From the NCBI RefSeq assembly GCF_000429465.1, contig NZ_AUBX01000010.1, forward strand, positions 248,001-312,000: 64,000 nt of DNA, written 5' to 3'. Below, piece after piece: positions 2,415-3,412 of the stretch (its first letter is position 1; the number at the start of each line of letters is the position of its first letter). Source of the stretch: Algoriphagus vanfongensis DSM 17529 (GTDB lineage: Bacteria > Bacteroidota > Bacteroidia > Cytophagales > Cyclobacteriaceae). Below the pieces are notes generated by a model that saw nothing but the letters and a program-made list of their open reading frames with translations, did no database searches and was not told where the DNA came from. The position numbers and the translations under genes are program-made.

Positions 2415-2444
2415 AACAAAAAAGCCCCGAATTACTTCAGGACT
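2415..2444 (-). terminator. Terminator of the tRNA-Asp/GIY-YIG transcription unit
   Basis: Read on the minus strand: AGTCCTGAA, loop GTAA, TTCGGGGCT, then a T-run interrupted once. The 9-bp stem has two G-U pairs. It sits just past the last tRNA-like copy and in front of nothing else on that strand before the sigma gene. Confidence 0.75.
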
Positions 2445-2449
2445 TAAAG

Positions 2450-2534
2450 CGGAACGGACGGGACTCGCCCCGATTGCTATCGCGGGCCGCGACCTTCCCG
2501 ATGAATCGGGACAAGCATTCTAACCAACTGAACC
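2450..2534 (-). pseudogene. tRNA-Asp-like chimera, copy A (two palindromes inserted)
   Basis: The 3' part (CGAGTCCCGTCCGTTCCGC on the minus strand) is identical to the acceptor/T-loop end of the neighbouring tRNA-Asp genes, and the 5' part keeps GTTCAGTTGGTTAGAATG. The anticodon arm is replaced by TCCCGAT-TC-ATCGGGA. A second, related palindrome (CCCGCGATAGCAATCGGGG) interrupts the T arm. The acceptor 5' strand is lost. It cannot fold as a tRNA. Its 5' end overlaps the last codons of the GIY-YIG gene. Confidence 0.75.
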
Positions 2535-2771
2535 CTCAATAAGGTTGGTGATATAAACCTTACTTTTTTGTCTTTTGATTTCATTTTCACGGCTGATAGC
2601 CTTTGCTTTAGTTTCATACTCCTCGACATAAACCAATTTCCAAGGTTTCTTTTTGGAAGTATATCCAGTGTTTGAGGAATTATGCTTTAACAGGCGGCTC
2701 TGAGGATCATGAGAATATCCTATGTAATAGGAACCATCAAGCAAACTTTGAAGAATATAAACGTAGTACAT
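2520..2771 (-). CDS. GIY-YIG nuclease domain protein (UPF0213/YhbQ-like)
   Basis: 83 residues from the ATG at 2771. The GIY half-motif is YYVYILQS at the very N terminus and the YIG half is YYIGYSHDPQSRLLKHN. The conserved glutamate follows in RENEIKRQKS. The family is a single-domain endonuclease fold; cellular roles of the small stand-alone members are poorly known. It lies inside a tRNA array, on the same strand, between an intact tRNA-Asp (upstream) and a tRNA-like chimera (downstream). Its last five codons and TAG stop are made from the chimera's 5' arm (GAG GGT TCA GTT GGT TAG), so the end of the gene is tRNA-derived. The longer in-frame start upstream would begin in the spacer and is less likely. 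Confidence 0.88.
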   Translation of the reverse strand: MYYVYILQSLLDGSYYIGYSHDPQSRLLKHNSSNTGYTSKKKPWKLVYVEEYETKAKAISRENEIKRQKSKVYITNLIEGSVG

Positions 2772-2818
2772 AGGAAAAATCAAAAAAAAAGCCACCTAGA
2801 AAAACTAAGTGGCTAAAG

Positions 2819-2892
2819 CGGAACGGACGGGACTCGAACCCGCGACCTCCTGCGTGACAGGCAGGCATTCTAACCAGCTGAACTACCGCTCC
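2819..2892 (-). tRNA. tRNA-Asp (GTC), copy 1
   Basis: Complete 74-base cloverleaf on the minus strand: acceptor GGAGCGG pairs with CCGTTCC (one G-U), D arm GTTC/GAAT, anticodon arm CCTGC-CTGTCAC-GCAGG with anticodon GTC, T loop TTCGAGT, discriminator G. CCA is not encoded. Confidence 0.97.
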
Positions 2893-2917
2893 TAATGGAG
2901 TAAACAAAACATTCTTC

Positions 2918-2993
2918 GGAACAAACAGGACTCGAACTAACAACTTTCCCGATAAATCGGGACAAGCATTCTAACCAGCTGAACTACTGTTCC
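2918..2993 (-). pseudogene. tRNA-Asp-like chimera, copy B
   Basis: Keeps the D arm (GTTCAGCTGGTTAGAATG), T loop (TTCGAGT) and a fully paired but altered acceptor stem (GGAACAG with TTGTTCC). The anticodon arm is replaced by the 16-base palindrome TCCCGAT-TT-ATCGGGA preceded by CTTG, leaving no 7-base anticodon loop. Two central T-stem pairs are broken. It is not a decodable tRNA, yet the paired acceptor changes look compensatory. Confidence 0.75.
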
Positions 2994-3035
2994 AAAATTA
3001 TAATATGTCACTAATTGATGAACTTTTTCATCAAA
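2992..3035. repeat. 44-base spacer repeat, first copy
   Basis: Matches 3217-3260 at 43 of 44 positions; the offset of 225 bases equals about one tRNA-plus-chimera unit, so the array grew by tandem duplication. It contains a 7-bp hairpin (TGATGAA-CTTT-TTCATCA) between tRNA-like elements. Confidence 0.9.
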
Positions 3036-3041
3036 ATTATG

Positions 3042-3115
3042 CGGAACGGACGGGACTCGAACCCGCGACCTCCTGCGTGACAGGCAGGCATTCTAACCAG
3101 CTGAACTACCGCTCC
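3042..3115 (-). tRNA. tRNA-Asp (GTC), copy 2
   Basis: Identical over 74 bases to the copy at 2819-2892: same acceptor, anticodon GTC in CTGTCAC, and TTCGAGT T loop. CCA is not encoded. Confidence 0.97.
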
Positions 3116-3142
3116 TAATGGTATATTTCAATATTATTCTTT

Positions 3143-3218
3143 GAATCGAACAGGACTCGAACTAGCAACCTTCCCGATATATCGGGACAAGCATTCAAAC
3201 CAGCTGAACTACCGCTCC
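3143..3218 (-). pseudogene. tRNA-Asp-like chimera, copy C
   Basis: The 5' acceptor strand and D arm match tRNA-Asp (GGAGCGGTAGTTCAGCTGG), but the 3' acceptor strand has decayed (CGATTC). The anticodon arm is replaced by TCCCGAT-AT-ATCGGGA. The T loop TTCGAGT is kept, and the T stem has the same two mismatches as copy B. Confidence 0.75.
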
Positions 3219-3260
3219 AAAATTTTAATATGTCACTAATTGATGAACTTTTTCATCAAA
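3217..3260. repeat. 44-base spacer repeat, second copy
   Basis: Second copy of the spacer at 2992-3035, with a single substitution, lying between chimeras C and D. Confidence 0.9.
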
Positions 3261-3266
3261 CTTTTC

Positions 3267-3342
3267 GAAACAAATGCGACTCTAACCAGCGACCTTCCCG
3301 ATGTATCGGGACAAGCATTCTAACCAGCTGAACTACCGCTCC
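3267..3342 (-). pseudogene. tRNA-Asp-like chimera, copy D
   Basis: First element downstream of the array promoter. The 5' half equals tRNA-Asp and the anticodon arm is TCCCGAT-AC-ATCGGGA. The acceptor 3' strand (TTGTTTC) can pair with GGAGCGG only through several G-U pairs, and the T stem is broken with T loop TTAGAGT. Confidence 0.75.
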
Positions 3343-3381
3343 TTTTTTGAAGATCTCTTGTGACCTCCGTTTTAAGTGATG

Positions 3382-3412
3382 CAAAGGTATGCTTTTGATC
3401 TTTGAATGCAAA
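3382..3412 (-). promoter_or_regulatory. Promoter of the tRNA-Asp/GIY-YIG array
   Basis: Minus strand TTTG (3412-3409), 19 bases, TACCTTTG (3389-3382). This is an exact Bacteroidota sigma-A pattern, about 40 bases before the first tRNA-like element. Confidence 0.75.

Follow-up and report, generated by a model that had tools for sequence, protein, structure and literature searches.

The 64,000-nucleotide stretch of the Algoriphagus vanfongensis DSM 17529 genome analysed here (contig NZ_AUBX01000010.1, positions 248,001 to 312,000; hereafter the window) carries two tRNA-Asp genes interleaved with four tRNA-Asp-like copies, or chimeras, in which a palindrome stands in place of the anticodon arm. 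We found that a small GIY-YIG nuclease open reading frame (ORF), overlooked by the first-pass annotation of this DNA, sits between the second tRNA-Asp gene and the last chimera (copy D), and that this arrangement recurs in other genomes. Our reading is that the chimeras belong to a compact selfish element living as a parasite of tRNA genes, in which the nuclease would cut and repair would copy the unit, and we put the probability of this reading at roughly two in three. We interpret the unit as a homing element of tRNA genes that resembles SegB; its mobility, its cleavage site and the role of the palindrome are inferred.

Along the minus strand from 3342 to 2449, the array comprises three full-length chimeras, two tRNA-Asp(GTC) genes, the GIY-YIG ORF and a truncated fourth chimera. 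The features in and around it are as follows.

3382..3412, minus strand: promoter-like TTTG-N19-TACCTTTG, found by eye
3266..3342, minus strand: outermost full-length chimera, with a decayed T arm, from the sequence
3296..3311, no strand: palindrome in the outermost chimera, from the pattern search
3142..3218, minus strand: full-length chimera directly upstream of the first tRNA-Asp, from the sequence
3172..3187, no strand: palindrome in the chimera at 3142..3218, from the pattern search
3041..3115, minus strand: intact tRNA-Asp(GTC), first in the array, identical to the gene at 2818..2892 (ARAGORN; Rfam, 68 bits)
2917..2993, minus strand: full-length chimera between both tRNAs, a proposed solo scar (Rfam tRNA, 27.5 bits)
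2947..2962, no strand: palindrome in the chimera at 2917..2993, from the pattern search
2818..2892, minus strand: intact tRNA-Asp(GTC), second in the array, adjoining the nuclease ORF (ARAGORN; Rfam RF00005, 68 bits)
2790..2814, minus strand: terminator after the second tRNA-Asp and before the ORF, from the terminator scan
2520..2771, minus strand: GIY-YIG nuclease ORF, 83 amino acids, ATG at 2771 (Pfam PF01541)
2449..2533, minus strand: copy D, the truncated chimera, from the sequence
2496..2511, no strand: palindrome in copy D, from the pattern search
2468..2486, minus strand: imperfect hairpin CCCGCGATAGCAATCGGGG replacing GTT in the T loop of copy D, found by eye
2422..2445, minus strand: terminator 3' of copy D, from the terminator scan

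The product of the ORF is essentially a GIY-YIG domain alone. The ORF program had placed its start at a GTG (2795) inside the terminator hairpin; we prefer the ATG, which lies 46 bp past the end of the second tRNA-Asp gene and behind that gene's terminator. The protein matched the profile of the GIY-YIG superfamily, PF01541, with an E value of 9.9e-18 and 64.7 bits (cut-off, 22.6). The catalytic residues of GIY-YIG enzymes are Y, Y/G, R, H and E. Numbered from the GTG start, Y13, Y24, R34, H38, N39 and E70 did not vary across 16 aligned proteins and G26 hardly did, and the window protein has the catalytic residues of the superfamily. Two of five nuclease proteins scanned (from loci L152 and L139) matched homing endonuclease families, weakly, and 17 of 50,697 phage records matched the window protein at an E value of 0.001. 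The stop codon of the ORF, TAG, belongs to the GGTTAG of the D arm of copy D. This copy is truncated at its 5' end: it begins in the D arm, lacks the 5' acceptor strand and has its own terminator on the 3' side, and 13 nt of its anticodon arm are replaced by TCCCGATTCATCGGGA (row L005).

ARAGORN, Rfam and a pattern search bore out the first-pass description of two identical tRNA-Asp genes interleaved with four palindrome-armed copies. In all four copies the anticodon arm was the palindrome TCCCGATnnATCGGGA; all 14 arm bases were invariant and only the central pair varied (TC, TT, AT and AC on the minus strand), as described earlier for the 7-bp arms. With up to two mismatches allowed, the palindrome pattern had five matches in the window, a number reached in 0 of 100 shuffles, and the only exact matches in the whole 4.7-Mb genome were these four. 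The tRNA models gave no valid tRNA among the copies: ARAGORN called the two intact tRNAs of the array and none of the four copies, and only the two intact genes passed as functional tRNAs against RF00005, the best copy scoring 27.5 bits against a gathering score of 29 bits. Rfam listed just one copy (2917-2993), with its anticodon region unaligned.

Two further proposals of the first pass held in part. A single promoter and a single terminator had been said to bracket the array. The terminator at 2422-2445 was recovered, and the promoter-like TTTG-N19-TACCTTTG at 3382-3412, seen by eye, matches what we take to be the Bacteroidota promoter consensus; it was absent from the list given by a sigma-70 scan of the region. 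However, a second terminator (2790-2814) follows the second tRNA, so a single run from promoter to terminator does not describe the array. A compensatory change had been proposed in the acceptor stem of the copy at 2917-2993, where one pair is indeed altered on both sides (G6:C67 to A6:T67). This is weak evidence of selection, since the acceptor changes are all transitions and the T stem, read by eye, has lost two of its five pairs, and we rejected a single two-sided pair amid transition-type decay as proof of function.

To describe recurrence, we used 59 GIY-YIG loci, 30 from Algoriphagus (the window's included) and 29 from Bacteroidota phylum-wide (the window's excluded), which are the best-scoring ones, one per genome, and not a random sample; the source genomes were 60 Algoriphagus and 198 Bacteroidota, 123 of the latter with a relative of the window protein. 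The recurrent order was an intact tRNA and its terminator, followed by a unit of GIY-YIG ORF, 5'-truncated tRNA copy and terminator. ARAGORN found a tRNA at most 700 bp upstream on the same strand at 42 of the 59 loci, the window among them, which is the arrangement, a free-standing nuclease gene beside a tRNA gene, expected of a homing endonuclease of the SegB type. A downstream 3' copy of the upstream tRNA scored above all 100 shuffles at 32 of these 42 loci, and 22 of the 32 copies enclosed a palindrome (arms of at least 6, with tRNA sequence on both sides). A search with a pattern derived from the tRNA context, by which its matches are preselected for tRNA, returned 56 stretches in named genomes, about 7 of which seem on visual inspection to be chance matches or hairpins of another kind; a GIY-YIG ORF stood beside the palindrome in 23, and a manual count found a tRNA within 1.5 kb in 40.

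In a small control of 16 other genomes, reached via palindrome matches, an upstream tRNA accompanied 11 of 19 short GIY-YIG ORFs and 0 of 5 long ones. Ten of the 11 tRNA-linked short ORFs had a 3' copy, some barely above shuffles, and five had a palindrome, one of which (L350) is doubtful. Of 30 loci in these genomes, 24 entered the test; L330, L333, L337, L339, L355 and L357 yielded no frame under the filter used. At L334, L341, L354 and L356 (Gracilibacteria, Patescibacteria), the GIY-YIG matches contained several in-frame TGA codons, which are expected where TGA encodes an amino acid.

The palindrome replaces a definite segment of the tRNA copy. We ran 26 loci and obtained 24 rows from 21 of them, keeping 23 after discarding the L258 row as an artefact. 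The palindrome abutted tRNA sequence without an extra base in 20 of the 23 rows, and TCCCG was present in 19. The whole 17-nt anticodon arm was replaced in three Ala copies (L152, L252, L274) and a Val copy (L265), and also, with two extra bases, in an Asp copy (L254). Three Algoriphagus Asp copies shared the loss of an identical 13 nt of the anticodon arm. In six Asp copies outside Algoriphagus, from five other families, an identical 8 nt of the T arm (CGAGTTCG/CGGGTTCG) was replaced, each time by a different palindrome, so that the sequence differs and dyad symmetry is retained; a seventh such copy (L272) had its swap at another place. Exact 17-nt anticodon-arm swaps are known here from four phyla, among them those of a Nitrospirota Asp (L332), a Cloacimonadota Pro (L346) and an Acidobacteriota Ile (L352) copy, whose genomes were reached through the tRNA-context pattern and which are probably the loci L066, L069 and L044 of that search.

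The total length of the palindrome ranged from 15 to 30 nt. A hairpin fits this spread better than a protein site of fixed spacing, and we rejected the latter, in the form of a dimer site. We also rejected the idea that the palindrome was copied from the terminator hairpin, since TCCCGA/TCGGGA is shared with some Algoriphagus terminators and absent from others. At L327, in a Bacteroidota genome, 11 tandem 5' pieces of tRNA-Asn with a period of about 67 bp lie beside an intact tRNA-Asn.

Nuclease groups also appeared largely to track tRNA isotype. On a tree of 59 nuclease domains, built on only 78 columns and with 17 of its 56 inner branches open, isotype labels (tRNAs within 400 bp) required 18 changes against a shuffled mean of 36.5, a count as low being seen in 0 of 200 shuffles. 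One clade (100/98) of 10 rows from four bacterial families contained eight Asn-linked nucleases and two with no tRNA in the 400-bp range; a ninth Asn-linked nuclease (L259) fell outside it. The Asp-, Ala- and Leu-linked nucleases of Algoriphagus occupied different positions, and 13 of the 17 loci without an upstream tRNA formed one separate clade.

Presence and absence of the unit at an orthologous site were observed at one site, other than the window's own. Locus L160 is occupied, with the order tRNA, terminator, ORF, truncated tRNA with palindrome, terminator and gene, and L181, L201, L205 and L179 are empty, with the order tRNA, terminator and gene. All five share a downstream gene that, judged by eye from its first part, is accA-like; the offsets are 256 to 384 bp, and the terminator is duplicated in L160. 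Tandem units were found at L197 (two) and L156 (three); the period in tandem arrays was 345 to 378 bp, and the sole ORF seen per unit was the GIY-YIG one. At least six tandem GIY-YIG ORFs, spaced by about 364 bp, were found at L325, in a Bacteroidota genome, where eight nuclease matches were listed.

Among 55 Algoriphagus tRNA-Asp loci, eight had a nuclease ORF, 26 had a TCCCG..CGGGA palindrome nearby, some of these being terminator hairpins, and 28 had neither; the element is accessory in Algoriphagus. These 28 loci, together with the broken T arms and acceptors seen by eye in several copies, would suit a neutral history in which tRNA genes were duplicated and decayed and template switching, which can correct imperfect palindromes, kept the hairpins perfect with no element involved. 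However, decay fails to explain similar swaps beside a nuclease with a conserved active site in several phyla, the definite boundaries of the swaps, or nuclease groups that follow isotype, and we consider this history very improbable. The first-pass suggestion of tRNA decay after duplication holds in part; the chimeras look like tRNA copies of the GIY-YIG element or its scars.

The palindrome itself is not confined to tRNA copies. Its exact 16-mer occurred in 34 of 60 Algoriphagus and 65 of 296 Bacteroidota genomes, a reversed-pattern control giving zero in every genome listed, and was found in RNase P RNA, in the SAM riboswitch, in group II intron-like sequence and within other palindromes. 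The 16-mer alone is therefore not diagnostic of the element. Among 89 distinct palindrome contexts (the best match per genome, most of the 16-mer matches listed, and tRNA-Asp loci fetched otherwise), 39 had a tRNA-like score of at least 23, against 5 of 178 control positions; the 39 are biased upward by the selection of loci and include one nested palindrome (L016). Among contexts scoring low as tRNA, 25 cases remained after de-duplication, of which L028 is a tRNA-like copy after all. Their flanks paired with each other better than expected by chance: a value as low arose in 2 of 1000 trials with mismatched flanks and in 0 of 200 with random places, so low-score 16-mers tend, whatever the reason, to cap larger hairpins.

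Both the spread of the 16-mer and the pairing of its flanks would favour TCCCGAT..ATCGGGA as a mini-element that enters or replaces hairpins of any kind, tRNA copies being merely tolerant targets. Three observations make this unlikely: in P4 of the SAM riboswitch the 16-mer is reached stepwise from TTCCGG..CCGGAA among relatives, a TCCCG..CGGGA palindrome was present at just 2 of 20 Y1-transposase loci, and many tRNA-associated palindromes are linked to a GIY-YIG ORF. Since the SAM riboswitch 16-mer arises by stem drift and so few Y1 loci carry the palindrome, a self-moving palindrome is not needed, and it is less likely than the nuclease element. The first pass had suggested a mobile palindrome that targets tRNA-Asp; the results support a nuclease element at tRNA genes but not a palindrome that moves alone. 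A RAYT/Y1 transposase, whose gene REP palindromes would flank, was rejected as the mover, a TCCCG..CGGGA palindrome lying at 2 of 20 Y1_Tnp loci (1.7 to 3.3 kb each), and the drift series weakened the case for mobility of the palindrome by itself.

Several hairpins outside tRNA copies were seen along the way. The drift in SAM riboswitch P4 of Algoriphagus (L296-L324 compared with L019, L235, L240 and L320) ends at TCCCGATnnATCGGGA, a natural convergence. In Algoriphagus RNase P RNA (L096-L125; 29 of 30 loci were aligned, L113 being left out with its motif absent), variable hairpins hold varied palindromes, TCCCGATAGCTATCGGGA among them. At L234 (727-790), a TCCCGATTTATCGGGA palindrome lies in a stem that resembles, by eye, a TPP riboswitch. 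Group II intron-like sequences with the palindrome were recognised by eye at L015, L017, L032, L036, L039, L214 and L243; Rfam intron families match nearby at L017 and L039, but over the palindrome itself they score under the gathering cut-off.

In the selfish element that we propose, the unit would consist of the GIY-YIG ORF, a 5'-less tRNA copy in which a hairpin, usually based on TCCCG...CGGGA, takes the place of one segment, and a terminator, and would lie directly downstream of an intact tRNA gene of the same kind. The nuclease would cut the intact tRNA gene. During repair from a unit-bearing donor, the 5' side would pair with the donor's intact tRNA and the 3' side with the donor's truncated copy, serving as the second homology arm, and the terminator behind it, and the recipient would acquire the downstream unit and keep a whole tRNA. 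Repeated cutting and unequal repair could then yield tandem arrays. The swapped arm would make the element's tRNA copy unreadable as tRNA and perhaps uncuttable, and it is predicted to be the nuclease's own target, namely, the T arm in one Asp lineage and the anticodon arm in another. A D-arm recombination event joining the intact tRNA to the truncated copy would remove the ORF and leave a full-length solo chimera; chimeras A to C are probably such scars. We propose only tentatively, at somewhat less than even odds, the fuller version in which cross-phylum units of about 350 to 380 bp cut essential tRNA genes that are difficult to alter, one isotype per nuclease lineage, and exchange precisely the targeted arm for a TCCCG...CGGGA hairpin against both self-cutting and mis-decoding.

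A swapped arm would equally delete a cleavage site in RNA, and chimeras A to C might be cotranscribed with the tRNAs from the promoter seen by eye, as would be expected if the GIY-YIG protein cleaved tRNA itself and the swapped-arm RNAs were decoys or immune forms. Nevertheless, the ORF-linked copies have no 5' acceptor strand, a number of others have no T arm (by eye), and the GIY-YIG enzymes known to us act on DNA; we regard this toxin-decoy scheme as the most improbable of the explanations weighed. The decoy or processing-RNA role suggested in the first pass likewise found no support, given a number of copies elsewhere without a T arm or 3' acceptor (by eye) and the 28 of 55 tRNA-Asp loci lacking both nuclease and palindrome. 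Full tRNA-like function of the chimeras was rejected with regard to the same incomplete copies.

Several results weigh against the selfish-element reading, beginning with the nonrandom choice of the 59 loci and the few columns behind the tree. An upstream tRNA was absent at 17 of the 59 loci, a significant 3' copy at 10 of the 42 tRNA-linked loci, and a palindrome with tRNA flanks in 10 of the 32 loci having a 3' copy. At seven Leu-linked loci, the TCCCG..CGGGA palindrome was not found in the downstream stretch inspected, and no tRNA was found across the 4.4-kb stretch of tandem GIY-YIG ORFs at L325. The window protein matched no NCBIfam family (E value, 0.01) and no PHROG family (E value, 0.001). 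Asp-linked nucleases accounted for seven changes on the tree and did not form one clade. The Gly, Ser, Asn and Met copies had their swaps at other places, and in the L327 array a TCCCGAT..ATCGGGA palindrome takes the place of the D arm. A swapped arm could by itself give only partial protection, because the supposed target persists in the intact tRNA upstream.

Known systems resemble parts of this arrangement. Rickettsia palindromic elements and REP elements are short palindromes dispersed in genomes; here, in contrast, the palindrome stands in for part of a tRNA copy and accompanies a GIY-YIG ORF, and, unlike for REP elements, there is no clear link to Y1 transposases (the 2 of 20 loci given above). 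Integrative elements use tRNA 3' ends as attachment sites, which leaves an intact tRNA on one side and a truncated copy on the other. The units described here likewise keep an intact tRNA on one side and a truncated copy opposite, but they form tandem repeats, carry one ORF (GIY-YIG), have an internal swap in the truncated copy and duplicate the terminator. We recognised no chromosomal GIY-YIG/tRNA units in the literature searched, whose coverage of subscription journals and preprints is thin.

The closest likeness is to SegB, a free-standing homing endonuclease of T-even phages that also pairs a GIY-YIG gene with neighbouring tRNA genes (PMC13096335). SegB of T6 makes its cuts within tRNA genes; of 83 sites, 23 had the motif RAWTSGAAC, the complement of which is a T-loop sequence (PMC13096335). 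The paper also reports that SegB drives tandem amplification of the tRNA-segB segment by recombination, probably because the 5' region of tRNA-Tyr resembles the 3' region of segB (PMC13096335). Our units differ in that they lie on bacterial chromosomes of several phyla, that the window ORF encodes just 83 amino acids, and that each includes a truncated tRNA copy of its own, in which a hairpin replaces one segment. The comparison is one of layout and published description. The units resemble a pared-down SegB system in which a built-in, disabled tRNA copy would act as second homology arm.

If this reading is true, the homing strategy of T-even phages represented by SegB would have a minimal chromosomal counterpart in several bacterial phyla, and tRNA genes would be exploited as targets that hosts cannot easily mutate away. 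It would account for the tandem small GIY-YIG ORFs and the "broken" tRNA copies of many genomes. It would also provide a natural collection of nucleases in which the swapped arm is a readable hypothesis of the target, making cutting specificity directly testable.
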